A stretch of 64,000 nt of DNA from Antedon mediterranea (GCF_964355755.1 NC_092671.1:5033001-5097000); one strand, 5' to 3'; shown: positions 774 to 54,750, counted from the first letter of the stretch. Numbers and translations are program-made. Notes: a model not told the origin generated them from the sequence alone.

Positions 774-12352
<11,579 letters not shown>

Positions 12353-33720: not shown

Positions 33721-36139
33721 ATGTCTGAAAGAAAAGTGTTAAATGTAAGTATATTCATTCTTTTTTAAAGAAGGTATTTCAGAAAAAAACTGATTGTAAA
33801 AATTATCATCTAAAACATATCATGACCATTCAATTATTAATGATGATTTTTTTATTTTAGAAATACTATCCGCCTGATTTTGATCCGTCAAAAATACCAA
33901 AAGTTAAAGCTGAAAAAAACAAGAAGTTTGTTGTCCGTCTCATGGCTCCATGTCACATGAGGTGTGTAAAGGCTATTTTTTTATTTTTACATTAATATTC
34001 CATAAACATTATCATTATTATTAATAATCTTGAAATCCACAGGGCTTCGTTTCAAGATAGTATTGGTTTCTTTTTGAGATAAACCGAATTTAAATGTCAA
34101 AGGAATAGAAATGTATGATTGTGTATCATACAGTGTCAATAACCCTCAACATATTTATTCTACAATTTATTGTTTTCCAAATGGTACTTTTATTGCATCT
34201 TGTATCTTCTTCTTGTCTGCTTTCTTGGAAAAAAATCACATTATTTAGTTTGCAAAAAGAATCTTGAAGAAAAGTCATCGCGAAGAGAGTCTTAAAAAAA
34301 AAAGCAGCTCATGGTATATAATTATCTGAATTGTCATTTTGACACAGATGTAAAACATGTGGTGAATATATCTACCAAGGAAAGAAGTTCAATGCAAGGA
34401 AAGAAGATGTTTTGGATATGAACTATCTAGGACTTAGAATGTACAGATTCTACATCAAATGTCCTAAATGTGTAGCTGAAATCTCATTCAGAGTAAGTAC
34501 AATTTAGTACATTTATATTATAATGTAAAAATGTGGTTGAGGCAGACAATGAAAATCAAAGGCAAGCAATTTGAGTATTGCCATCTAATGTTTGCCAAAT
34601 GTTGTAGCCTGGGATTATTACTTATATTCTTACCTATTAAGAAATGTTTAATTCTATTGAATCTATAACCTATTCAAAGTTTTAAATTCTTTCAGACAGA
34701 CCCTGAAAGTCAGGACTATGTCGTAGAAGCAGGGGCAACCAGGAATTTTGAGGCTGTGAAATTATTGGATGAAGAGGAAAAGAGAATAAAGAAACAACGG
34801 GAAGATGAAGAAGCAAACAATCCAATGAAGGTGCTAGAGAACCGAACCAAAGACTCCAAACAAGAGATGGACATTATGGAAAATATAGAAGAACTGCGAG
34901 AACTGAACACGAGACAAGCGGATGTTGATCACATCGGAATCATAAAGGAAAAGGAGGAAGAAATGAGGAAACGACAGGAGGAAGAGGACGAAGCTGAGAT
35001 TAGGTTTGTACATTTGTCGTACAGTTTGAAGTTAATACATAATTCGTTTTCCATTATTTTAAAACTAGCCTGTTTCATAATAGCAACTTTTTGTTATCAT
35101 GCAGCGACAGGTGAATACGTAGCTGTTGAGTCAAAAAGTCAATCTCCACATATGTAGGATGACTTTTAGACTCATTAAACATATTTGCAACCAGTTCAGA
35201 CTTTATTTTCTAGTTATCAGACTTTTTGGAAGTCTCTACTTTCAATGCCTATTTAATTATAATTTCAGGAAAATCTTTGGAAAATCATCAGAAATAATAA
35301 TGAAACGTCTAGATGATAGTGGAAGTGAAGAAGACGAAGAGAAACCATTGTTTCAGACTAAATTAACTAAAGGCAAAAGACCAACAGATTTTATTCATGA
35401 GGTAATTGTTCTTACAAACTTAAATTTAGAGAGTTAAGAGAACTACACACATCTATCTGGTTATGCCAGAATCACGATAAGAAAAGCGCATTTTGAACTT
35501 AAGCTCTGTCTACACTATCAAACTAGTTTGACAAAAAAGTGGAATGTGCCCAAATATGGTAGTGATATGGTCAATTTTTCTTTACAGGATGTAGAGGCTG
35601 TATCGAGTCAAAAGAAGCAGAAAGTCTGGGACCGGAGTGTAGGCCAGTTAAAGTCTTCATTATCATCTCTAGTCAAGACCAAGAAGGCACCAAAACACAA
35701 AGATTCTGTCACACCCATAATCAAAACCAAAAGAAATCTTTCTGAAACAAGTTTGATTAATGATGAAGAAAAAGTAGTGGAAACAAAAGCTGTAGAGGGC
35801 AGTAGTAGGACTGTTGAGCCTTCATCAGTTAACAGTAACCAAAATACTGTTCAGCCTTCATCAGTTACCGGTAAACAAAATACTGTTGATGCTTCATCAG
35901 CTAACAGTAAACAAAATACTGTTGACCCTTCGTCGTCTGGTGACGTTGAAAGTGATCTTACTATTGGTCAACAGTCAACAGAAGAGACAAGCGGTATTTC
36001 AAGTTTACCGGTCATGGCACATATCAAAGAGGGTATGGTAAAAAAAAAGGAATTAAAGGTCAAATCTTGTGGCCTTGGACTTGACCTCCTAGGAGGGTAC
36101 TCGGACAGTGATGATTCAAATTCTGATGTATCTGAATGA
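33721..36139 (+). CDS. YJU2: YJU2 / CCDC94 spliceosome factor, complete, six coding exons
   Basis: Exons 33721-33744, 33861-33961, 34348-34492, 34696-35003, 35269-35401 and 35588-36139 join to 420 codons plus stop. The start is [20 protein letters not shown], as I recall for human CCDC94. Four cysteines in CKTC (43-46) and CPKC (80-83) form the zinc site of the CWC16 family. [18 protein letters not shown] and [15 protein letters not shown] are conserved. A Glu/Lys-rich helical stretch follows. The C-terminus [17 protein letters not shown] matches the conserved acidic end. Yju2 joins the spliceosome at the catalytic activation step and helps dock the branch helix for step one. The protein is about 100 residues longer than human (323), largely from a Ser/Thr/Asn-rich region with a 12-residue repeat in exon 6. 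It is convergent with MRPL21. Confidence 0.95.
35500..35575. mobile_element. Half copy of MITE family A beside a YJU2 splice acceptor
   Basis: AAGCTCTGTCTACACTATCA, AACTAGTTTGACAAAAAAGT and GCCCAAATATGGTAGTGATA match the left half of the family. The right half is absent. The fragment runs to within about 12 bp of the acceptor of YJU2 exon 6 (35588). Confidence 0.8.
35816..35935 (+). repeat. 36-bp coding minisatellite in YJU2 exon 6
   Basis: Three 12-codon units of the form (E/Q/D)(P/A)SS(V/A)(N/T)(S/G)(N/K)QNTV are followed by a partial fourth. The unit length is a multiple of three, so it changes protein length without breaking the frame. Confidence 0.9.
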
Positions 36140-36848: not shown

Positions 36849-39800
36849 CTACGATACCGGTGCAACTTCAATACTGTTAATTCTTAACACTGTGTGGTTG
36901 GGTTTCTTTTCTGAAAAAAAAAATTAAACAAATTATGAAACACTCTATAGCAAGCAGAGGTGGATCCCTTTTTAACGGGGAAGTGCATACATAATAATAT
37001 TTTGTAAATAGTAGTTAATTTAATTTTAACTGTCAAAAGGACAGTTTTGCTGAATTTAAACTTTTATTACGATTTTTTATATTTTGATTCATTATGCTTT
37101 GCTTAACTTAACTATGTAGCTGTCAAATAAAAAAAATGGAAAATGGGTTCAGTGGTAAAGCATAGGATTGTTGACACAAAATTGGTACGATTTGAATCCA
37201 TACAGTAGCGATAGATCAAGAAGCTATTTGTTTTCTGAAATTGTATGATTTTTGTCTCATCCAATCAGCAGTGAGCATGAATGATCTCGCTTGACAACGG
37301 ATAACCAAATTTGTGCTCAATGTAAAAGCATGCTCAATACTCCTGGGCGCAATGTGAAAGTAGCTTAACACAACAATTCAAACATCTATATATGAAAAAA
37401 ATATGATGTAACAAACCTTTGTATTTTTTGTGCCTCTTCCTCCTATGGAAACGGAATATTACAATAGTTGGACCCTTAGTTTTCTCAATCACTGTGGCTT
37501 CTACTTTCACAACATCTAACCTAATAAAAAGTTATTATTTATATTTATTTTAGGTAAGTACTTTCTCAATTTTGTATGCGGAGCCAACACAAAATCAAAC
37601 TCAGAATTCCCTCATGTAGAATGACAAATACAATGGTTGTTTGCTGAGAATCTAATAGGTTTACTGCAACCATGAAATGCATTGACATAATATAATATCA
37701 TTGGAATATACACTATTTTTGCAATAGACTCATGGCAGCCATGAAATCAATTGATACACTATTTTTGCAATAGACTCATGGCAGCCATGAAATCAATTGA
37801 TACACTATTTTTGCAATAGACTCATGGCAGCCATGAAATCAATTGATACACTATTTTTGCAATAGACTCATGGCAGCCATGAAATCAATTGATACACTAT
37901 TTTTGCAATAGACTCTTGGCAGCCATGAAATCAATTGATACACTATTTTTGCAATAGACTCATGGCAGCCATGAAATCAATTGATACACTATTTTTGCAA
38001 TAGACTCATGGCAGCCATGAAATCAATTGATACACTATTTTTGCAATAGACTCATGGCAGCCATGAAATCAATTGATACACTATTTTTGCAATAGACTCA
38101 TGGCAGCCATGAAATCAATTGATACACTATTTTTGCAATAGTCTCATGGCAGCCATGAAATCAATTGTCATGATAAATTATCATTGCAATAGATTCATTG
38201 CAACCATGAAATCCATTGACATAATATAATATCATTGGAATATACACATTGCAGCCATGAAATCCATTGTCATGAGAAACTATCAGTGCAATAGACTCAT
38301 TGCAGCCATGAAGTCCATTGTCATGAGAAACTATCATTGCAATAGACTCATTGCAGCCATGAAATCCATTGGCATAATAAAATATGATTTTAAAGAAAAG
38401 ATTGTTAGTGAAAATTTGTGGATGAACATACTTAATGAGAGGCTTTCCTGTAATTGTGAAGTTTTCACCTCCTACCATTAGGACCTGTAAAATAAAAATG
38501 GTAGGCAATGATATATCATTACTAAGTTCAAGTGAAAATGTGTACACAAGATGCTCTCCACAAACAAAAGTCTAAAGCTATTAGGATAGTGTACAATATC
38601 CTGTCCATCTGAGGACCAGTTGCTTAAGTCACCTCCAACCTCCAAACAGTGGCAATCTGGGAGCTTGCAAACACACGTTTGCTAGTTAAGAATAGGCTAA
38701 GTCTTTGTGAGGGTAGGAAGTTGTACTGTCACGTCAAAATTGGATCGATTTTGGTCGTAATCAAGCGCCAAAACTGGTCCGGTCGGATCGATTTTGGCGT
38801 TGAAACAGCCACTAAAACAGGTCCTGCTAGGCCAAAACTGGTCCGGCATTTAAAATCGCTTATTTATTCTTTAAAATGTGTTAAGAAGCCTGCAAAGAGT
38901 TCAAATGGTTAAAGTAAACTATGCTTAAAGTAAAATACTAAATATTACTGTACAAACGAAAAGAAATTATCGAAACACTAATTAAAGAAACTCTAATCGG
39001 CTTTTGGGATATTCTATTGTTCAGTTCGTTTAAAACTAATAGAGCCCCCTAGTAATTTTATATTATGCCTAAGAACCGAACGCCGATTTATTCTTGCACA
39101 TTTTTAATCTCTCCGTTTCGATAATTCCTTTTTGATTTACTCTAAGCATAGTTTAACTTCAACCATTTAGACTTTTTAAAAGATAAATAAGCGATTTTGA
39201 AGGCCGGATCAGTTTTGGTCTAGCCGGACCTGTTTTAGGGGCTGTTTCAACGCCAAAATCGATCCGACCGGACCAAATTTCGCGTTACAGTACAACTCAC
39301 TGAGTCAGGGATACTACAGTATAGACACAAAATGCCCTTTGCTTAATTCCAGGCGACACATTTCTGTTTATAAGTTACTGCTTAACAATTACCTTTTCAA
39401 GCCGTATCCTATCGCCGACATCGGCATCAATGTGCGAAAGAGTTTGGATTAGGTCATTTGTTGTTACTTTAAATTGTTTACCAGATATATATAAAATTGC
39501 AAACAGACGGCCATTGTTGGAATTTATCTCACTGTTTACGTTTTGCAATACTGAATAATCTGTAATAAAAAAATTTTTTTTTTTAATTTTCATGTTATAC
39601 TTTTTCATTTTCATGCCACCTTATTAACTGGCCCTGCAGTAACGTTTAGACCACTGGGTTCATTGACATTATCCTATAATTGTCTAAAGCTCAGTTTACA
39701 CTATCAAACTTTATGTAACAAAGCAATACAAACCATATATGGACATGATGACATCATATCACTACCATATTTATGGCTACATCACACCTTTTTTCAGAGC

Positions 39801-42800
39801 TTAAGAGTTAATTCTACTGTTAAGTTTGATGCTGGAAGAAATACACTTAATTGAACGCAAACTGCTCCAATTTATGCTAAAGTAAGTTCTGTCTACACTA
39901 TGAAACTACAGTCGACCTTCTCATTTACACACTTCTCAATTACGAACCTTCTATTTTACGAACGCCGTTCGAACGATGACGTCATCAGTAATATAATAAA
40001 ACTTTTACGTACCTACTAATTTATTATCTTCTTAATTTATTAAACTACCCCAAAACAATTATTTCATAAATAAAGCAAAGCTTATTAAAAACGATCCACG
40101 ATTTATTTATAGTTTAAAAGTTGTCTATTCTTAGGCCGTTAGCTAGGCCGTTTAGCTAGGCCTAGGCCGTTTAGTCTAGGCTTAAGCTAGAGATCATCAT
40201 CCCCACTGCTGGAGTGCATGGAGAGCACCCTGCACGTGTTTTTGAAAAAAACAAAAGTTGATCGCGAACTGCAAAAAAGGCTAGCTACGATGACCATACT
40301 ATCAATTTAGTTTGGTTTGTGCATGTGTTTACGATATAAAAAAACACTTGACTCTTATTTATTAACATTTTAAAACTTTAATGTCAGTCGTCGCGTAGCC
40401 ATTTTTCTGGGAATTCCATTTTACAAACACCACACATACATAGTAGCTTAAAAATGTAAATATTTGCGGTCCAGAACGGATTTTATATTATTACTTTAGG
40501 AACAAGTTCGTAAATTACAGTTTGTGTCAAAATATGCATAATAAACAGGAAAGTAAACGATTGAATTTTGGTACAGAGAATGTGTGTAACATAACAAAAA
40601 GCAGAAATATCAATCTTTTTGGCATTTAAGGTGTTAATTTACATGTTAAATTTAATTGTTTTATACTGTATTAATATTTTTAATACTGTTTGTTCTTTAT
40701 AGTGTACTATACACAGTAAGTTTTACATAGGGCATTTTGTTTGGACATGTTTTTACCACTGATTTAATAGAGGGCGCTTTTTTCCGAACCTTCTCATTTA
40801 CGAACTTTTTCATTTACGAACGCCTCTCAGACCAAGGGGTACGTAAATGAGAAGGTCGACTGTAGTTTGAAAAAAAAGTTTGATGCCCAAATATGGTATG
40901 TTGCATGTATAAAGAGTGATATCGCCCTCTATCCGGGGCAGAGGCAACATGGTGGATATATTGTAGAGAACATGTGTTGATATCTGAATAAAGAATGTTG
41001 TTAATAATCATTTTCGTATGAAGTCTTCAATCATAAAAACAATACATAAAACAGTAGTGATATGACATCATCATGTCCATATATGTGCATATTTTTTGGT
41101 CACATAAGTTTGATAGTGTAGACAGAGCTTAAGATTTAACAGTGTACTTTGTAAACATTATATATGTTTTCTATTATTTTTTTGTTATCATAAAGATCTT
41201 CAATGATTCGAGGAGAAGACCATTTCCTCTCCCGTCAACTTTACCTGAAGAAATCCACTTTGAACCAGTTCAGGGTAACCCATCTATTGTATTCATGATC
41301 AATGAGTTGGATACTGCTTTGGTGGAAGTGGAAAGAGGAAACAAAGTAAGCCATACTACTACCACCACATCACATTTATTAAAACAACATTTTAAAGATC
41401 ATTACCATTAGATAGAGAAAAATCAGTGTTTAAAGATGTTGGTAGCGTTGACGATGGTTGGAATCTATGTAACTGTGGCAATACCATGCGATGTGCTTGA
41501 GTTCTAATAAAAAAAGATTTTATTAACAATTATTAAATTTATAGTTATACATATTGTATTTACTTGATTTGTCTTTTTTCCAAGAAAAGGAAGTAGGGAC
41601 ACTCCTTGGCATGCTGACTGTTGTGGAGAATTACCATGCTGCTGCTTAGTGTCATTCTGTGCTCATAAATAAATATGTTTTCGAGAAGGCATTAGAATGA
41701 CTTTTAGACTCAAAAGGTACATATTGGCATTTCGACTAAAAAACGATGCATTATTATTAATCATCGAGGTATAATATATATAGGCCTAGCTAGGCCTATA
41801 TATCATATACCGCCATGCATTAATCTAGGTAGTGGCAAGAAAACAAAATGTAAAGGTAAAAATGGAGAACTTACCCGACTAAATTAAAACTATTATTTAC
41901 TTCAATTTGAAAGCCTATGTAAAACAGAATATAATAAATGGAAACAAGTTTTTATAAAATTTAGTAATACTATGCTAATTCCTAAATTAAAAATAAACAA
42001 GCACGAATGTGCAATACTCGGGGTACAGCGAAAGAAGCTGTATACAGACGTATATAGTTAGAAAGTTAAAGAAAAATAGGTTTCGCCAGGGCTCGAACCG
42101 GGACCTTCTGCGTGTTAAGCAGACTTGACAACCACTACACTACGAAAACCACTTACACTAAAAATGTGGGTTACAGAAAGTTTTTTAATCCATTTAAATT
42201 ACAAATAAATATGGTAATAAGCACAAAGAAAAATAAACATGTGTAAAAGTGATAATTACCGATTACACAAAATAAGTATTTAAAGACCCCTTCCCTGCAA
42301 TTTTGGACGTTTTTTGGAAAATAATACATATATATCACTTTAAAAACATTAAACCATGTCATTCCTTGTCTTAAATGTACGTTTTATGGTAAATTATGAT
42401 AAAAAGTGAGAAACAATGCACTACCTAAGTAGCTCGCGGCGATCGACCTCTCGTGGACGGTCTTAGGCCTAGCCTAGCTAGGCTTAGTTTTGTAGGCCTA
42501 GCTGGTAAACATCGGTAACGTACGAACATCGTAAGCGAGCTATATACCTAGCCTGACGTTGTATAGTTGCTGCATTAATTGTCTTTCTATTTTTGCCAGA
42601 CTCCGTTGATACAAATTGGGGAAAACCCGGTATTTTCGCTGAAAAGTTAGGAGTCTTCCATTTGTTTTGGTCTCACGATCGATCGAAAAGTGGGCGAATT
42701 ACAGGTGAAAAACAAAAATATCAATCCGCGCGCAATGCATTTTGGGATTTATAGCGGGCCGCTATAATGATTAGAATCGACTTATTTTTCACATTTTTAA

Positions 42801-43732
42801 CCGTTTAAAGACGAAAAAAGTTATCGCAATAGGACCATATAGTATTATTTTTACATTAAATATAGTTTTTGATCTTAAATGAGATCTAAAAAACGTAGGG
42901 AATGGGGCTTTAAAAAAATAATAAAAATAAGATATACTGTGTATAATTATCATATTGCGTATACAGTACTTTTCACCATAAAGTTTAAAAAATAGGTTTC
43001 GTCCGGGCTCGAACCAGGTACCTTCTGCGTGTTAAGCAAACGTGATAACCACTACGCCAAGAATCCGCATATAACCATATAACTACATAACGCTGTGGTG
43101 TGTGTCACACATTGTGGCTTCTTAATTAAACAAATTAATTAACAAAAAATTAAAAATCCGGCTCTATGTCCCTGTAGTATGTTCATGCCAAATCCCAGCT
43201 CAATACTACAACGAATAAGGGAGGATTAGTACTTTAAAAATCGCACTTTTTACTCAATAGTGTCCAGATGGAGGAAGAGGAGAAAATGAGCAAGTCCTAG
43301 ACTCGGGTACCCCGAGTAAAAAGATGACATAAGGGAACTTTTTCACAGATTGGGCCTTCCTTGGTTTTGACCGACTTCTCAGACCGTGTTTATAGAAAAC
43401 ACAACCTTAAGGATCGTTAAGCAGTATTCCAAAGAAGAAGAAGAAGTGTGGGTGCTACTCAACTGTACTTTCGCACCTAGCTAGGCTAAAATAACCACAT
43501 TTAAAAACGCTCACTCGAGCTGCCCGGTGCCGGCAATTTTCAATTGTCACGTGTAGGTGCAAAAGTACAGTAGCACCCATAAGGCTTAAGAAGGAAATTA
43601 GAATAAAAGGTAATTTATATATGCAATAACACATTTCATGAATCTCTAATAAGAAAGAGAGAGCCAACCTGGTTTCCGCAACGACCGCGTAAGCCTTCCT
43701 CCACAAGACAACCATCTCATGGGGGCAGCCAT
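36849..43732 (-). CDS. MRPL21: MRPL21, mitochondrial large-subunit ribosomal protein L21 (bL21m)
   Basis: Exons in transcript order: 43732-43669, 39559-39393, 38484-38432, 37520-37417, 36910-36849; 450 nt including the stop, phases consistent. Exon 1 encodes MAAPMRWLSCGGRLTRSLRK, an Arg-rich, acid-free stretch typical of a mitochondrial targeting presequence. The rest is the L21 fold: NGRLFAILYISGKQFKV, DADVGDRIRLEKVLMVGG, GKPLI, VKVEATVIEKTKGPTI, RRKRHKKYKEKKP and the end VLRINSIEVAPVS. bL21m binds 16S-type rRNA in the mitochondrial ribosome. The 149-residue product is shorter than human (about 205, from memory). The missing part lies between presequence and L21 domain, so a phase 1-1 exon may be unrecognised in the 4.1-kb first intron, or the linker is truly short. 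The exon 1 donor CCAG/GTTGGC is moderate. Confidence 0.88.
37705..38380. repeat. 46-bp minisatellite with palindromic units, in MRPL21 intron
   Basis: From about 37715 to 38165 some ten near-identical 46-bp units read CACTATTTTTGCAATAGACT CATGGCAGCCATGAAATCAA TTGATA. From 38170 to 38380 related but longer units (about 51 bp, TCATTGCAGCCATGAAATCC) follow. ATGGCAGCCAT and ATCAATTGAT are near-palindromes. Array units are nearly identical, pointing to recent expansion. Open frames here on both strands are repeat artefacts. Confidence 0.92.
38720..39296. mobile_element. Foldback MITE with ~150-bp arms (GATCGATTTTGGCG)
   Basis: GTTGTACTGTCACG at the left faces CGTTACAGTACAAC at the right. Inward, GGTCGGATCGATTTTGGCGT pairs with ACGCCAAAATCGATCCGACC and AAATCGCTTATTT with AAATAAGCGATTT. 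Its 577 bp lie in an MRPL21 intron between exons 39559-39393 and 38484-38432. Confidence 0.85.
39686..39804. mobile_element. MITE family A, diverged copy
   Basis: AAAGCTCAGTTTACACTATC begins it and CAGAGCTTAAG ends it. The right arm has lost the TTTGATAGTGTAGA segment. Confidence 0.7.
39909..40862. mobile_element. pogo/Tigger-like non-autonomous element with TA duplication
   Basis: CAGTCGACCTTCTCATTTAC at the left faces GTAAATGAGAAGGTCGACTG at the right, a ~20-bp perfect terminal repeat flanked by TA (39907-39908, 40863-40864). TTACGAAC words repeat subterminally on both sides. CAGT ends and TA targets are typical of Tc1/mariner and pogo families. No transposase ORF. Confidence 0.85.
40899..41053. 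mobile_element. Possible short solo LTR (TG...CA, 155 bp)
   Basis: The segment starts TGTTGCATG and ends CATAAAACA, contains AATAAAG, and interrupts a family-A MITE with GTA on both sides (40896-40898, 41054-41056). A 3-bp duplication is short for an LTR element, so the assignment is tentative. Confidence 0.4.
41196..41345 (+). CDS. Orphan exon-like open stretch, unknown product
   Basis: A TTTTTTTGTTATCATAAAG acceptor-like tract precedes 150 bp that are open in phase 0, and a GTAAGC donor follows. The 50 encoded residues (for example RRPFPLPSTLPEEIHFEPVQ and PSIVFMINELDTALVEVERG) have ordinary amino-acid composition, unlike the AT-driven frames around. It lies antisense inside the first intron of MRPL21. 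I do not recognise the protein, and no companion exon was found on either side, where TEs and satellites dominate. It could be an exon of an unrecognised plus-strand gene, a pseudogene fragment or exon captured by a transposon. Confidence 0.4.
42079..42150 (-). tRNA. tRNA-Val(AAC)-like sequence, probably pseudogene
   Basis: On the minus strand, TAGTGTAGTGGTTGTCAAGT matches the D-arm region of eukaryotic tRNA-Val, the anticodon arm CTGCTTAACACGCAG presents AAC, and GGTTCGAGCCC is the T loop. A D-stem pair (G-A) and a T-stem pair are broken and the acceptor 3' strand is one base short. It is thus likely a tRNA pseudogene or SINE head. It sits in MRPL21 intron 1. Confidence 0.45.
42280..42913. 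mobile_element. TTAA-flanked inverted-repeat element (piggyBac-type MITE), copy 1
   Basis: TTAA at both borders, with ends AGACCCCTTCCCT and AGGGAATGGGGCT (imperfect complement). The interior (TTAAATGTACGTTTTATGGT, GTGGACGGTCTTAGGCCTAG, GCGCGCAATGCAT, AGCGGGCCGCTATAAT) is shared with 63029-63618 along almost its full length. TTAA targets are typical of piggyBac elements. No transposase. Confidence 0.8.
42995..43066 (-). tRNA. Second tRNA-Val(AAC)-like sequence, degenerate
   Basis: Minus strand: GCGTAGTGGTTATCACGT, TTTGCTTAACACGCAGA (anticodon AAC) and GGTTCGAGCCC. Acceptor and T stems have mismatches. It lies 0.9 kb from the first copy and shares the unusual CTTAACACGCAGAAGGT and CGAAACCTATTTTT words with it, so the two are related copies. 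Confidence 0.4.
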
Positions 43733-44199
43733 CTTGACAATATCTTGCTGCCAAAATATCAATATGTAGAGGGCGGCGTATACAATTAATTAATTAAAGT
43801 ATCGAGCTATATATCCAATACCAAATTGGCGAGTAAATCATGTTTTACTTTAAATTAAATTTATACGCTCTTCCACAAGGTCAATTGTTAGTTATACATA
43901 CAGACTATATTAAAACAATGATTTTGAACACGTAGGGCATTTCTTTGAATTCATTCCTATCGTCTTTTTGTGGTAATTTACAGCTTTTTATATGTTTAAA
44001 AAACGTACATAATCAATTGCGTCTGAATCATGCTAGACTACAACTTCCGGTAGTGACGTAATCAGCATATTTTTGGTAATAAAACTTTTTTACTAAGCTA
44101 GGGAATCTTCTGATATCAATATTCATTAGACCGTACTTTATTTAGCCAATCAAAATAAACGTATAAACAATTTTGCGGCGATGTTATACATGTTGCTGA

Positions 44200-47100
44200 G
44201 TTAAAATATACTGTCTTTTACTATAACCAATTTGGTAAACACAATGATAAAGAATAGGAAACATTTAATAATATGATAAATGACATTTACATAGCAATTT
44301 AGCACTGTGTTTTACTATAACCAATTTGGTTATAGTAAAACACAATGATATAGAATAGGAAACATTTAATAATATGATAAATGACATTACATATCAATGT
44401 ATCACTGTGTTTTACTATAACCAATTTGGTTAGAGTAAAACACAATTATATAGAATACGAAACGTTTAGTAATTTGATAAATTACATAGCAATTTAGCAC
44501 TGTGTTTTACTATAACCAATTTGGAAAGTAAAACACAATGAAAAAGAATAGGAAACATTTAATAATTTGATAAATGACATTTACATAGCAATTTAGCACT
44601 GTGTTTTACTATAACCAATTTGGTTAAAGTAAAACACAATGATAAAGAATAGGAAACATTTAATAACATGATAAATGACATTACATAGCAATTTAGCACT
44701 GTGTTTTACTATAACCAATTTGGTTAGAGTAAAACACAATGATAAAGAATAGGAAACATTTAATAATATGATAAATGACATTAACATAGCAATTTATCAC
44801 TGTGTTTTACTATAACCAATTTGGTTAAAGTAAAACATAATGATAAAGAATAGGAAACATTTAATAACATGATAAATGACATTACATAGCAATTTAGCAC
44901 TGTGTTTTACTATAACCAATTTGGTTAGAGTAAAACACAATGATAAAGAATAGGAAACATTTAATAATATGATAAATGACATTCACATAGCAATTTATCA
45001 CTGTGTTTTACTATAACCAATTTGGTTAAAGTAAAACACAATGATAAAGAATAGGAAACATTTAATAACATGATAAATGACATTTACATAGCAATTTAGC
45101 ACTGTGTTTTACTATAACCAATTTGGTTAGAGTAAAACACAATGATAAAGAATAGGAAACATTTAATAATATGATAAATGACATTCACATAGCAATTTAT
45201 CACTGTGTTTTACTATAACCAATTTGGTTAAAGTAAAACACAATGATAAAGAATAGGAAACATTTAATAACATGATAAATGACATTACATAGCAATTTAG
45301 CACTGTGTTTTACTATAACCAATTTGGTTAGAGTAAAACACAATGATAAAGAATAGGAAACATTTAATAATATGATAAATGACATTCACATAGCAATTTA
45401 TCACTGTGTTTTACTATAACCAATTTGGTTAAAGTAAAACACAATGATAAAGAATAGGAAACATTTAATAACATGATAAATGACATTTACATAGCAATTT
45501 AGCACTGTGTTTTACTATAACCAATTTGGTTAGAGTAAAACACAATGATAAAGAATAGGAAACATTTAATAATATGATAAATGACATTCACATAGCAATT
45601 TATCACTGTGTTTTACTATAACCAATTTGGTTAGAGTAAAACACAATGATAAAGAATAGGAAACATTTAATAACATGATAAATGACATTTACATAGCAAT
45701 TTAGCACTGTGTTTTACTATAACCAATTTGGTTATAGTAAAACACAATGATATAGAATAGGAAACATTTAATAATATGATAAATGACATTACATATCAAT
45801 GTATCACTGTGTTTTACTATAACCAATTTGGTTAGAGTAAAATACAATTATATAGAATACGAAACGTTTAGTAATTTGATAAATTACATAGCAATTTAGC
45901 ACTGTGTTTTACTATAACCAATTTGGAAAGTAAAACACAATGAAAAAGAATAGGAAACATTTAATAACATGATAAATGACATTTACATAGCAATTTAGCA
46001 CTGTGTTTTACTATAACCAATTTGGTTAGAGTAAAACACAATGATAAAGAATAGGAAACATTTAATAATATGATAAATGACATTCACATAGCAATTTATC
46101 ACTGTGTTTTACTATAACCAATTTGGTTAAAGTAAAACACAATGATAAAGAATAGGAAACATTTAATAACATGATAAATGACATTACATAGCAATTTAGC
46201 ACTGTGTTTTACTATAACCAATTTGGTTAGAGTAAAACACAATGATAAAGAATAGGAAACATTTAATAATATGATAAATGACATTCACATAGCAATTTAT
46301 CACTGTGTTTTACTATAACCAATTTGGTTAAAGTAAAACACAATGATAAAGAATAGGAAACATTTAATAACATGATAAATGACATTTACATAGCAATTTA
46401 GCACTGTGTTTTACTATAACCAATTTGGTTAGAGTAAAACACAATGATAAAGAATAGGAAACATTTAATAATATGATAAATGACATTCACATAGCAATTT
46501 ATCACTGTGTTTTACTATAACCAATTTGGTTAGAGTAAAACACAATGATAAAGAATAGGAAACATTTAATAACATGATAAATGACATTTACATAGCAATT
46601 TAGCACTGTGTTTTACTATAACCAATTTGGTTATAGTAAAACACAATGATATAGAATAGGAAACATTTAATAATATGATAAATGACATTACATATCAATG
46701 TATCACTGTGTTTTACTATAACCAATTTGGTTAGAGTAAAATACAATTATATAGAATACGAAACGTTTAGTAATTTGATAAATTACATAGCAATTTAGCA
46801 CTGTGTTTTACTATAACCAATTTGGAAAGTAAAACACAATGAAAAAGAATAGGAAACATTTAATAATTTGATAAATGACATTTACATAGCAATTTAGCAC
46901 TGTGTTTTACTATAACCAATTTGGTTAGAGTAAAACACAATGATAAAGAATAGGAAACATTTAATAATATGATAAATGACATTCACATAGCAATTTATCA
47001 CTGTGTTTTACTATAACCAATTTGGTTAAAGTAAAACACAATGATAAAGAATAGGAAACATTTAATAACATGATAAATGACATTACATAGCAATTTAGCA

Positions 47101-48460
47101 CTGTGTTTTACTATAACCAATTTGGTTAGAGTAAAACACAATGATAAAGAATAGGAAACATTTGATAATATGATAAATGACATTCACATAGCAATTTATC
47201 ACTGTGTTTTACTATAACCAATTTGGTTAAAGTAAAACATAATGATAAAGAATAGGAAACATTTAATAACATGATAAATGACATTACATAGCAATTTAGC
47301 ACTGTGTTTTACTATAATCAATTTGGTTAGAGTAAAACACAATGATAAAGAATAGGAAACATTTAATAATATGATAAATGACATTCACATAGCAATTTAT
47401 CACTGTGTTTTACTATAACCAATTTGGTTAAAGTAAAACACAATGATAAAGAATAGGAAACATTTAATAACATGATAAATGACATTTACATAGCAATTTA
47501 GCACTGTGTTTTACTATAACCAATTTGGTTAGAGTAAAACACAATGATAAAGAATAGGAAACATTTAATAATATGATAAATGACATTCACATAGCAATTT
47601 ATCACTGTGTTTTACTATAACCAATTTGGTTAAAGTAAAACACAATGATAAAGAATAGGAAACATTTAATAACATGATAAATGACATTCACATAGCAATT
47701 TATCACTGTGTTTTACTATAACCAATTTGGTTAGAGTAAAACACAATGATAAAGAATAGGAAACATTTAATAACATGATAAATGACATTTACATAGCAAT
47801 TTAGCACTGTGTTTTACTATAACCAATTTGATTAGAGTAAAACACAATGACATAGAATAGGAAACATTTAATAATATGATATATGACATTTACATAGCAA
47901 TTTAGCACAATGTTTTACTATAACCAATTTGATTAGAGTAAAACACAATGATATAGAATAGGAACATTTAATAATATGATAAATGACATTCACATAGCAA
48001 TTTAGCACTGTGTTTTACTATAACCAATTTGGTTAAAGTAAAACACAATGATAAAGAATAGGAAACATTTAATAATATGATAAATTACATTTACATAGCA
48101 ATTTAGCACAATGTTTTACTATAACCAATTTGGTTAGAGTAAAACACAATGATAAAGAATAGGAAACATTTAATAATATGACAAAATGACATTTACATAG
48201 TAATTTATCACTGTGTTTTACTATAACCAATTTGGTTAGAGTAAAACATTTAAACTATGATAAATGATATTTAGCACTGTGTTGGATACAGTAAAACACA
48301 AATAAAGAATAGGAAACATATAATAATATGATACATTTACATACAAATTTAGTATTGTGTTTTACTATAGCCAATTTGGTTACAGTAAAACACAATGATA
48401 ATGAAACATTTATTATATGATGTTATTTACATAGCAAAATATTATATTAAACATATCTTA
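44200..48460. repeat. ~100-bp satellite array with 899-bp higher-order repeat
   Basis: About 42 monomers of ~100 bp carry CACTGTGTTTTACTATAACC, AATTTGGTTAGAGTAAAACA, GATAAAGAATAGGAAACATT and GATAAATGACATTCACATAG. Variant monomers alternate (for example TAGCAATTTAGCACTG versus TAGCAATTTATCACTG). A rare variant (GAATACGAAACGTTTAGTAA) recurs at about 44450, 45855 and 46754; identical 61-codon frames recur at 45200, 46099 and 46998, giving an exact 899-bp spacing. The first interval is 1402 bp, i.e. 899 plus about five monomers. Each monomer has a palindrome of two 18-bp arms around one base. Confidence 0.93.
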
Positions 48461-48603
48461 TTATCTAAACGTTATGATAAAGAATAGGATACATATAATG
48501 TAATAATATAATAAATACAAGTTACATAGTTTATCATCTTGTTTTACAGAACCAATTTGGTGACACAGTTAAACACAGTGATAAAGAATAGATACTGTTT
48601 TAG

Positions 48604-49015
48604 GTTATATAACCCTAACCCTAGTTTGAAGCGACATAATAAATTCATCGCGAAAAAGTACGTAACGTATTCAGAAACTTTTGAAATTTGTTAGATATGT
48701 TTAATAAGTTCTTACGTCTATAAAACAAACAAAAAATATAAATTTCACGAAAAATTCGTGATTTTAATAATTTGCATTTCTAAAAATGTACACTTATGAA
48801 ATACCATACATTTTCCAACACATTTTTACGTCATTGATGATTCCCAGAAATCAAAATAAAACAAATTATGATATTTCTTTTACATTATAGATGTAAGAAC
48901 CTATATTGAACATATCTATCAAATTTCAAACGTTTTTTAAGACCATACGTATTTTTATCGATGAATTAAGTATGTGATTGCTTCAAACTAGGGTTAGGGT
49001 TAACCTAACAGTTCC
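48604..49015. repeat. Foldback unit with CCCTAACCCTAG tips, copy 1
   Basis: AACCCTAACCCTAGTTTGAA at the left faces TTCAAACTAGGGTTAGGGTT at the right. The arms continue with CGCGAAAAAGTACGTA-type and TACGTATTTTTATCG words. The block is embedded in satellite flanks (CACAGTGATAAAGAATAGA). Confidence 0.8.
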
Positions 49016-49225
49016 ATTCTTTAACACTGTGTTTAACTTTTAACCAAATTGGTTTTAGTACAACACAATGATAAACTATGTACATTTTATTTTTCATATT
49101 ACATTATAGGATACAACATATAATGTAATATAATAAATACAAGTTACATAGTTTATCATCTTGTTTTACAGAACCAATTATTTGGTTACACAGTTAAACA
49201 CAGTGATAAAGAATAGACACTGTTT

Positions 49226-49642
49226 TAGGTTATATAACTCTAACCCTAGTTTGAAGCGATCACATACTTAATTCATCGCGAAAAATTAAATACGTATCGT
49301 AATCAGAAACATTTGAAATTTGGTAAATTATTATGTTCAATAGGTTCTTACGTCTATAAAACAAACAAAAAATAAAAGTTTCAAGACAAATTCGTGATTT
49401 TAATAATTTGCATTTCTAAACATTTACACTTATGAAAGACCATACATTTCCAACACATTTTTACTTCATTGATGATTCCCAGAAATCAAAATAAAACTAT
49501 TAGGATATTTCTTTTGCATTATAGATGTAAGAACCTATATTGAACATATCTACCAAATATCAAACGTTTTTCAAGACGATACGTATTTTTAGCGATAAAT
49601 ATTAAATATGTGATCGCTTCAAACTAGGGTTAGGGTTAAATA
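49226..49642. repeat. Foldback unit with CTAACCCTAG tips, copy 2
   Basis: TCTAACCCTAGTTTGAAGCG faces CGCTTCAAACTAGGGTTAGG. The interior is about 90 percent like copy 1 by eye. A third, half copy in the same orientation ends at about 50280 (GTCGCTTCAAACTAGAGGGT). Confidence 0.8.
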
Positions 49643-50969
49643 AACTAAAACAGTTCTATTCTTTATCACTCACTGTGTTTAACTTTTAACCAAAATGGTT
49701 ATAGTAAAACACAATGATAAACTTATATGTAAATTTTATTTTTCATAACATAAAATGTTTGATATTCTTTGTAATATTTAATATTATATTTTAGGCCTAC
49801 TATTAATGATTATTAATTTTCTACTTCATTGGCGATTCTTACCCAAAAAAAAGGACTAATTTTGTTATGTATATATAAGAGCAACCTATTATAACATGTC
49901 TTGTATGATTTTTATCTCGTTTCAATGACATTTTATACTACAATTCAAATGAAAAAGCATCACAAAAAAATACGTCTGGTATTCAAAAAGTTTCTAAACT
50001 CGGTACACAGAAAAAATGATGATATTCTAATGGTTTTATTGTATACTTTTGTGAGAATCATCAATGAAGTAAAACGAATATGTTGAAAATGTATGGTCTT
50101 TCATAAGTGTGAATTTTTAGAAATGCAAATTATTGAAATCATCGATTTGTCTTGAAATTTATAATTTGTTTTGTCTTTTTGAACATATCTATACAAAATG
50201 TCAAACGTTTCTGAATACGATACGTTTTTTTTTGCGATGAATTTATAATGTCGCTTCAAACTAGAGGGTAGGGTAGTAACCTAACAAGTATCTATTCTTT
50301 ATCACTATGTTTAACTGTGTAACCATATTGGTTCTAATAAAAATGTTCTATATATATATATAAACCAAAGGTGCTATATATACCCACCTTATTACAGATG
50401 AGAGATATTTGACTGCAAACACCAAATAATATATCAGTACCAGACTTAAGTTAGAATACTTAAATACATGTTACTACATTCAACTTAAAGCAATCCTGTC
50501 AGATGTTCTAATAAAAAACAGTGATAAACTATGTAAATTGTATGTTTCATATATTACATTTTTGCCAAAAAAAATTATTGGGAATGTCAAATTTCTTTTT
50601 CATGACATATATCTACAAATTTCAGAAGCTTTTGAATACGAGTATTTTACGCGATGTTTTTTTATCCTCATTTTAATATGTTGGTAATGTAATTCACATG
50701 CACAAAGTTTTGTATCCAAAATATTGTTTATTTTTGGTAGAAATGAGGAAATAAATAGTATTCCTGTATAATATAATAATCAATAATAAAGTATAACAAA
50801 AAGTGTTGTGTAAACGAACGTTTTTTACGCTTCGAATTTTCTGTTACATTATGTTTGAATTGAAGCTACATATATTGAATCATGGACCTATAAATTAGTA
50901 ATTTATAGGTCCATGATTGAACATATCGTCACTCACCACACTAATTATGGAACGCCGTTTTACACAAGT

Positions 50970-51195
50970 TTTTGGCGATGATAAAAATTGCGTCGATGAT
51001 GAAATTGCGTCGATGAAAATTGCATGACGCAATGTAGATTGCGTCGATGCAATGTAGATTGCGTCGATGCAATGTAAATTGCGTCGATGAAAATTGCATC
51101 GACGAAAATTGCGTCGATGAAAATTGCGTTGATGAAAACTGCATCGATGAAAATTGCGTCGATGAAAACTGCATCGATGAAAATTGATGTGACGA
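50970..51195. repeat. 15-bp minisatellite GCGTCGATGAAAATT
   Basis: About 14 units alternate GCGTCGATGAAAATT, GCATCGACGAAAATT and GCGTCGATGCAATGTAGATT. The open frame across it (FSSTQFSSMQ) is a repeat artefact. Confidence 0.9.
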
Positions 51196-51599
51196 ATTTA
51201 ATTGATTATGAAAATTCCAAATGGTTTTAATTCAATCAATGATGAAAATTACTACTAGTAAAGTAAATGATGATGTTAATAATGATGTTAATAATGTTAT
51301 TATGTTGCTAAAAATTGACGGTTTCTGAATATTTTGATATGATAAACATGTTTACCGCTTGCGCTAGCGCGCGTTATAGACAAGCGCACAGTGAGCGCGC
51401 ACTAAAACAATGTTGAAATATATGCACTGATTAACATTTTAGTGATTTATTGTCAACACATTTTAGCAATGGATCCATTATTGTCCTTTCGGAAACATTA
51501 TATCTTCTAGCTAATTGCTTCCGTTAATCCACCAGTACAGTACATAAAATTCAGATGTCCAGCATCCATGACATCATATTCAAATCAAACCGGCAGGGA

Positions 51600-51815
51600 G
51601 ATCGCAATTTTCATCGATGAAAACTGCATCGATGAAAATATTTTTTTTTTTTCATCGATGCAGTTTTCATTGATGCAGTTTTCATCGACGCAATTTTCAT
51701 CGACGCAATGTTCATCACATCGACTTAAATTTTCATTACATCAATACTATATTCATCGACGCAATTTTCATCACATCGACGCAATTTTCATTGCATCATC
51801 GACGCGATTTTATCA
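51600..51815. repeat. 15-bp minisatellite, mostly opposite orientation
   Basis: AATTTTCATCGACGC and AGTTTTCATCGATGC units are the complement of the array at 50970-51195. Two units at the left edge (GATGAAAACTGCATCGATGA) keep the first orientation, so the turn is at about 51640. Confidence 0.88.
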
Positions 51816-52149
51816 TCGCCTAAACTGGCATTCCATACTTATTGCGTGTGATCTGATTGGTGTATTAATAAATTCATCGCGATGAATTTTTCAGTAGATG
51901 TAATGAGACAGTTCAGTAGATGCAATGACAGTTAATTTAATTGTTCTGCTCTTTTTGTACAAATCTATACTACTTTATATTATGGATGTTGTAGTACTGT
52001 TAAAATTATTAAATCTCTGGAAGTGTGTTTTACGCAAATTTATGCGTTTACGGTTTTAAAATGCACTACGCACGCAGTATTCCAAAATGTCTTACTAATC
52101 ATAGAAAATCATATTGTATCATATCATATTATATCCATTCTTTAAATTC

Positions 52150-53190
52150 ATATTCTTTATCCAAAACTAAATTGGTATAGTAAAACACAGTGCTAGCAAT
52201 TTATCATATTATTAAATGTTTCCTATTCTTTATCATTGTGTTTTACTCTAACCAAATTGGTTGTAGTAAAACACAGTGATAAATTGCTATGTAATGACAT
52301 TTATCATGTTATTAAATGTTTCCTATTCTTTATCGTTGTGTTTTACTCTAACCAAATTGGTTATAGTAAAACACAGTGCTAAATTACTATGTAAATGTCA
52401 TTTATCATGTTATTAAATGTTTCCTATTCTTTATCGTTGTGTTTTACTCTAACCAAATTGGTTATAGTAAAACACAGTGATAAATTACTATGTAAATGTA
52501 ATTTATCATATTATTAAATGTTTCCTATTCTTTATCATTGTGTTTTACTCTAACCAAATTGGTTATAGTAAAACACAGTGATAAATTGCTATGTAAATGT
52601 AATTTATCATGTTATTAAATGTTTCCTATTCTTTATCGTTGTGTTTTACTCTAACCAAATTGGTTATAGTAAAACACAGTGCTAAATTGCTATGTAAATG
52701 TCATTTATCATGTTATTAAATGTTTCCTATTCTATATCATTGTGTTTTACCATAATCAAATTGGTTATAGTAAAACACAGTACTAAATTGCTATGTGAAT
52801 GTCATTTATCATGTTATTAAATGTTTCCTATTCTTTATCATTGTGCTTTACTCTAACCAAATTGGTTATAGTAAAACACAGTGATAAATTGCTATGTAAA
52901 TGTCATTTATCATATTATTAAATGTTTCTTATTCTTTATCATTGTGTTTTACTCTAACCAAATTGGTTATAGTAAAACACAGTGCTAAATTGCTATGTAA
53001 ATGTAATTTATCATATTATTAAATGTTTCCTATTCTTTATCATTGTGTTTTACTCTAACCAAATTGGTTATAATTTATTTAATTTCATTTCAAAAGACAT
53101 TTACCTAAATTGCTATTTCAATGTCATTTATCAAATTATTAAATGTTTCCTATTATTTATCTGGTTATATAGTAAAACACTGTGCTAAAT
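52150..53190. repeat. Satellite array in inverted orientation, about ten monomers
   Basis: TGTTTCCTATTCTTTATCAT, TGTTTTACTCTAACCAAATT, GGTTATAGTAAAACACAGTG and CTATGTAAATGTCATTTATC are the complement of the 44200-48460 monomer. Units are ~105 bp. The last two are truncated or diverged. Confidence 0.92.
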
Positions 53191-53214
53191 TGCTATTGTA
53201 TTAAGGACGAGTTC

Positions 53215-53470
53215 CGAGAAGATGTATTCAAAGCTACAACCAATCAGAACAGTGTTAATCAATATAGTCCATGGCTACAACCAATCAGAAACGTCCAAAT
53301 CGCAATAACCCCTAGGCTAATAGAAAATATTGGTCCAAGTAGCCTTTTCAACCAGACGTTGCGAGGTTTAAAAAGTAAAACATGATTTACTCGCCAGTTT
53401 GGTATAGTTTATATACCTGAAGTATCATGTTGCATGCTCCTCTCTCTTTCTGCTGGGGATTTTCCAAGTT
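53215..53470 (+). promoter_or_regulatory. Possible promoter with duplicated CCAAT boxes
   Basis: GCTACAACCAATCAGAA occurs twice, about 45 bp apart (near 53235 and 53272), with a reversed ATTGG at about 53328. It lies about 2.8 kb before the SETX-like start codon and at the right edge of the satellite block. CCAAT boxes suit a housekeeping promoter, but no transcript start is visible, so this is a suggestion only. Confidence 0.25.
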
Positions 53471-53935: not shown

Positions 53936-54750
53936 GTTATATATGTTATGCGCGATTTGAACGATTTGCGCAATTTGAAATTGCGCAAAAAAATCCTTGC
54001 GCAATTTTAAATTGCGCAAAGAATTCTTGCGCAATTTTAAATTGCGCAAGGATTTTTTTGCGCAATTTCAAATTGCGCAATCAACTTGCGCAATTTCAAA
54101 TTGCGCAAGAAAATCTTTGCGCAATTTTAAATTGCGCTGCACAATTTGTAAATTGCGCAAGATAGTTCTTGCGCAATATGACACCTTTGCGCAATTTGAA
54201 AACGAACTGTAAATTTTCCCATACATGGCTAGGCTAGGCCTAGGCAGAGGAGTTTAAAATTTAGTATTTTATTATATAAATAAGACCATTTCAATGAAGA
54301 TAATGTTTAATACTCACTTTTTAAGTTTTTAATATTAGTTTAAGCTAGGCCATGTAACCTAGTCAGTATCAGTAGTCCAGACCCTAGCTAGGCTAGAGTA
54401 GTATTGCCGGCCGCCCGCGCCGCGCCCGCCTGGTGGAACACCACCGCTTCGTTTTCCTTCGTCGGTTCTTCGACGGTATGCTAACTTATAACAATATTTG
54501 CACTACTAAAATAAGGAAATGCGATATTTATCTTTAATTTTGAATCATTCTTAGAAATTACTATAAAAATATGGGTGTGCATGATTTCACAATCTGTCGA
54601 AAAACCTTGCGCAATTTGCAGATTACTTGCGCAATTTAATACGTTGCTTGCGCAATTTGAAACACATGTTTCAATTCAAATTGCGCAAGGATTTTTTTTG
54701 CGCAATTTCAAATTGCGCAAATCGTTCAAATCGCGCATAACATATATATT
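53936..54750. mobile_element. Foldback element made of TTGCGCAATTT palindromes
   Basis: Left end ATATGTTATGCGCGATTTGA and right end TCAAATCGCGCATAACATAT are exact complements, and the identity continues for about 70 bp. Subterminal TTGCGCAATTTTAAATTGCG palindromes are repeated five or more times on the left, fewer on the right. The central 400 bp is unrelated, including a GC-rich stretch near 54405-54440. Confidence 0.85.

Follow-up and report, generated by a model that had tools for sequence, protein, structure and literature searches.

The window (the whole stretch of 64,000 nucleotides of Antedon mediterranea DNA analysed here) contains, between positions 43804 and 53419, a copy of a DNA transposon that is foldback-like and non-autonomous and has satellite DNA of its own. 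This copy belongs to a new family of transposons with terminal inverted repeats (TIRs) and internal tandem repeats, the nearest known elements being Galileo and Tetris. The family comprises about 60 copies, most of them of 5–11 kb, and is young; insertion is of the DNA-transposon type, with 7-bp duplications, and whole blocks, including their arrays, have been copied to new chromosomes. We propose, with a probability of about 0.6, that this satellite-bearing element is moved by a transposase probably belonging to the P superfamily, which would bind the arrays as well as the ends.

A sequence-only reading of the window had described a block at 43799–53426, enclosed by inverted copies of a segment of about 55–60 bp, with satellite and 15-bp layers arranged inside as mirror images. 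This description proved accurate. Each strand of the window contains the core of the terminal segment (GGCGAGTAAATCATGTTTTA) exactly once, at 43828 on the plus strand and at 53376 on the minus strand, and the left and right termini align in inverted orientation over 53–56 bp, giving a TIR of about 50 bp. Both Tandem Repeats Finder and a repeat finder recovered the 101-bp array with its inverted form and the 15-bp array with its complement (Table 1). The arms of the element contain a 681-bp inverted repeat (95% identity), in register, within the mirrored 101-bp arrays, and the centre (48.5–49.8 kb) is occupied by a directly repeated module of about 630 bp. The proposed limits were correct to within the 7-bp target duplication, a perfect copy of which was found at both borders, where that reading had advised looking for one; the borders of the element proper were set by end homologies stopping at the identical base in many genome copies.

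Table 1. Features of the element in the window, and sequences located within other copies of the family
Feature	Position	Strand	Remarks
Left target-site duplication, AAGTATC	43797..43803	.	7-bp rule holds at 15/15 sites
Whole element, 9,616 bp, non-coding	43804..53419	+	Junctions common to many copies
Left terminal inverted repeat, GAGCTATATATCCAATACCAAATTGGCGAGTAAATCATGTTTTACTTTAAA...	43804..43860	+	36-mer: 57 genome matches, <=3 mismatches
Left subterminal unique segment	43861..44236	+	Well conserved; including left TIR, mean p-distance 0.0095
Left 101-bp satellite array, ~40 units	44237..48248	+	Higher-order periods of 899 and 1302 bp
~630-bp module, two direct copies, 88–96% alike	48484..49775	+	
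15-bp array, unit GATGAAAATTGCGTC	50980..51186	+	
Spacer of inner 15-bp foldback	51187..51648	+	
15-bp array, inverted counterpart (GACGCAATTTTCATC)	51649..51817	-	
Right 101-bp satellite array, inverted, ~9 units	52199..53072	-	
Right subterminal segment, two CTACAACCAATCAGAA motifs	53168..53365	+	Most conserved part; including right TIR, mean p-distance 0.0064
Right terminal inverted repeat, CAGGTATATAAACTATACCAAACTGGCGAGTAAATCATGTTTTACTTT...	53366..53419	-	36-mer: 58 genome matches, <=3 mismatches
Right target-site duplication, AAGTATC	53420..53426	.	
Element ends, search form			GAGCTATATATCC... (one end) / CAGGTATATAAAC... (other end)
Retrotransposon stretches	7217-9190 and 2126-4178 of two segments read from C10:8095789-8115337		
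Second giant foldback element	About 1518-8700 of copy C7:22800567-22816987; twice in C4:31171059-31193850		

The surroundings of the element in the window include, a little way beyond it (53966–54137), an array whose units of about 31 bp consist of the palindrome TTGCGCAATTTNAAATTGCGCAA, a 46-bp tandem array of 14 copies (37708–38371), two minus-strand tRNA-Val (AAC) genes a short distance ahead of it (42077–42150 and 42994–43066), and an open frame (34669–35157), probably an exon, that matches the Saf4/Yju2 family of splicing factors.

The genome searched comprises 354.4 Mb in 18 contigs, 11 of which account for nearly all of the sequence; the window corresponds to C2:5033001–5097000. The 22-bp TIR core gave 60 forward and 59 reverse matches (119, versus 0 for the reversed control), and this result, with the 681-bp inverted repeat, places the mirrored structure beyond chance. 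Among the 100 core matches listed, all but one (C7:6825656) formed inward-facing pairs, and the full 36-bp ends yielded 53 left/right pairs spanning 1,437 to 22,792 bp (median 8,821 bp), which together cover 0.50 Mb and are present on all 11 large contigs. In several further copies, one end is truncated or changed. A genome-wide abundance of solitary terminal segments lacking satellite, which would have spoken against a mobile unit, was not observed. At C7:6825632, a diverged right end is accompanied by no left end in 17 kb, and a search for a second subfamily with diverged copies as queries found none. A miniature of 553 bp (C10:7470327–7470879) consists of two left ends of the element, face to face, and three copies of about 10.85 kb (C8:7072726, C10:17309641 and C4:20380539) have the central 630-bp module inverted, as the result of an internal inversion.

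A perfect 7-bp duplication was present in all nine complete copies compared first, and at every one of the 15 sites with both junctions read, with a different sequence at each. The family combines TIRs at both ends, target duplications that have the same length at every independent insertion read and many dispersed, near-identical copies without a transposase gene in the interiors read, as is expected of non-autonomous TIR (class II) transposons. Its long, internally repetitive inverted arms, with both array orientations in nine of the nine copies examined, are those of a foldback-like element. Two copies, C4:2999213–3007340 and C2:36833509–36841636, are both of 8,128 bp and show no differences, but their duplications differ (GGCCAGG vs CCATTTG). 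Identical copies on different chromosomes indicate that whole satellite blocks have transposed recently, and the suggestion that the block is a giant foldback element in which satellite DNA moves as one unit was borne out by these copies, the paired termini and the duplications. The ends are better conserved than the interior: the mean pairwise distance among nine copies was 0.6% for the right end and 1.0% for the left end (p-distance 0.006–0.010), versus 1.7–1.9% (0.017–0.019) for the interior. Older copies are few (C2:5381595–5383031, with 76–88% identity by segments; C4:12685819; and C6:4880757).

The genome was also searched for the 101-bp satellite. Of its 107 listed and mapped genome matches, 106 lie inside element copies, and the remaining one (C1:58766) belongs to a right-end fragment of 634 bp with 96% identity. 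Among the sampled matches, the satellite therefore occurs only within copies or fragments of the family, although only the best candidates were scored and free arrays outside the family are thus not strictly excluded. The inner spacer (51200–51600) and the 630-bp module gave the same picture, with 40/40 scored genome matches each inside family copies. As it resides in a family of jumping elements, the satellite spreads here by transposition rather than being fixed in one place. Across the nine copies, the forward units number 4 to 52 (the maximum belongs to a copy with two blocks) and the reverse units 8 to 14, figures that may not be exact since tandem arrays are hard to assemble. This variation in unit number accounts for much of the variation in length among copies, whereas the longest copies owe their length to nested insertions.

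The satellite and the TIR have motifs in common. The sequence ACCAAWTTGG has 95 matches in the element (both strands counted) and 0 in the remaining 54 kb of the window; in both the TIR and the 101-bp unit it is followed, in the same order, by AGTAAA, and GTTTTACT is also present in both. The TIR and the monomer share 8 7-mers versus 2.7 expected, a value reached in 36 of 1000 shuffles and therefore only moderately significant, both sequences being AT-rich. Local alignment of the TIR with the monomer was not significant (scores of 12–15, versus a shuffle mean of 11.9 and maximum of 18). The suggestion that the element amplified its own subterminal repeats is plausible; the common motifs are what suggests it.

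The longest open frames in the element encode 124, 100 and 96 aa, the long interior frames resulting from the 15-bp array, with a period that is a multiple of three. No Pfam family matched the interior ORFs scanned, and no transposase-carrying copy with these ends was found among the long copies read. In the absence of genes inside the element, its movement must occur in trans. Four long copies were considered as autonomous candidates and rejected. The 19.5-kb copy owes its length to a Ty3/gypsy-like LTR retrotransposon with a gag-protease-RT frame and an integrase frame (C10:8095789–8115337); the 16.4-kb and 22.8-kb copies both hold another giant foldback element, and the 14.9-kb copy is nested or duplicated. 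This second giant foldback element is of 7.2 kb, with two 3.5-kb arms 96.4% alike and ends TATGGCAAGCCTCAGCTGTCTGAAG; it has an apparent 6-bp duplication (AGGAAA) and is inserted in the satellite of the family described here.

P-type RNase H-like transposase domains gave 35 matches in the genome, some of them in ORFs of 590–794 aa, and hAT domains with long ORFs are also present; comparison of coordinates placed none of the hAT or P-type matches inside any element copy. Three 794-aa P-type frames (C1:2823415, C3:37950354 and C8:6208861) have identical scores and probably represent a young P-element family. In the 2.5 kb read of the flanks of one of these loci, no matching TIR was found.

The length of the duplication, the symmetry of the target and the architecture of the element suggest that it belongs to the P superfamily, an assignment by analogy of which homology is not part of the basis. 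The P superfamily (Galileo group) is characterized by duplications of 7–8 bp and a palindromic target preference. Both were observed here; as to the target, the base 6 bp beyond the duplication on either side was a pyrimidine in 47 of 51 flanks (binomial p 2e-10, uncorrected for the positions inspected). However, P-type ends are expected to begin with CA, and the left end begins with GAG, which counts against this assignment. Mobilisation may instead depend on a transposase from a different superfamily (hAT, MuDR-like, KDZ or an undescribed one), with the satellite as a passenger without a binding role, a doubtful but serious alternative. No transposase has been tied to these ends, the long hAT ORFs provide a potential source, and the case for binding sites consists of motif sharing. 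However, hAT transposases usually generate 8-bp duplications, as opposed to the 7 bp found consistently here, and neither hAT nor P-type matches lie within the element copies. Dada elements generate duplications of 6–7 bp, but they lack TIRs and target small-RNA genes (PMC3706591), whereas this element has TIRs and its 15 target sites all differ in sequence.

Under the preferred reading of a P-type mobilisation, a transposase encoded elsewhere, most likely THAP-domain and Galileo-like, would bind both the ends of the element and, as putative sites, the ACCAAWTTGG / AGTAAAAC motifs that recur in the 101-bp units. Tandem amplification of a subterminal binding site could have produced the two inverted arrays, which would recruit transposase and help the element to compete for a shared enzyme; thereafter, the length of the arrays would vary by unequal exchange. 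We tentatively suggest, at less than even odds, that the 101-bp satellite may be an amplified transposase-binding platform, built and kept by selection for mobility rather than by chance. If so, the satellite would exist because it helps a parasitic element to win its transposase, and every array of it would be inside the mobile family.

The other explanations fared far worse. Local duplication of an ordinary satellite array in inverted orientation could by itself have produced mirrored arrays at this site, and an origin by inverted duplication had been offered in the sequence-only reading, but as a single event it is unsupported and very improbable, given that the same ends and structure recur at some 60 loci, with a distinct 7-bp duplication wherever both ends were read. 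A rolling-circle element of the Helentron/HINE type, such as those of oysters with tandem repeats at their centre, is equally improbable: such elements do spread satellite-like arrays through the genome (PMC7492417), but this element has long TIRs and clean 7-bp target duplications. Neither is a feature of rolling-circle insertion. That the inversion is an assembly artefact is scarcely credible, despite the difficulty of assembling tandem arrays, since one mis-join cannot give paired termini genome-wide, flanking duplications that match at each of 15 independent sites, and arrays that differ among copies.

The origin and spread of satellite DNAs is an old question, and a satellite is shown here moving as a unit. 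The carrier set is young and nearly complete, with about 60 copies and readable duplications, so that the growth of arrays can be followed copy by copy and is visible before the arrays escape into heterochromatin, a step proposed for Tetris.

Galileo (P superfamily, Drosophila) generates 7-bp duplications at a palindromic target motif and has TIRs with tandem repeats, its longest copy being of 9 kb (PMC4168063); THAP binding sites lie within these tandem repeats (PMC3688188). The element resembles Galileo in its 7-bp duplications, palindromic target preference, foldback-like build and tandem repeats in the arms (PMC4168063, PMC3573991, PMC3688188), and the longest Galileo copies, of up to 9 kb, are likewise non-coding. 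However, transposase copies can be recognised in Galileo, whose TIRs are long, whereas no coding copy was found here; large arrays are exceptional in Galileo (one copy, in D. willistoni) but were present in 9/9 large copies examined here, and the terminal sequence of the element is not recognisably the same as that of Galileo. Tetris, a foldback element of Drosophila virilis (PMC4079207), is also non-coding, with AT-rich internal tandem repeats of about 220 bp in its arms, and the mover of neither element is known. Of Tetris, which has been proposed to feed satellite arrays (PMC4079207), only three copies are structurally complete and free satellite arrays are many; the family described here has 53 paired copies, and the satellite matches sampled included no free array. 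In Cg_HINE / Helentron of oyster, mobile elements that are non-autonomous have likewise spread satellite-like arrays, which form their core (PMC7492417), and our element may be seen as a functional parallel to these satellite-bearing elements, which are, however, of the rolling-circle class and lack long TIRs, 7-bp duplications and a mirrored double array. What distinguishes the present family is that many of its copies are intact and young, that it combines two mirrored repeat systems unrelated to each other, and that its satellite was not observed elsewhere in the matches sampled.
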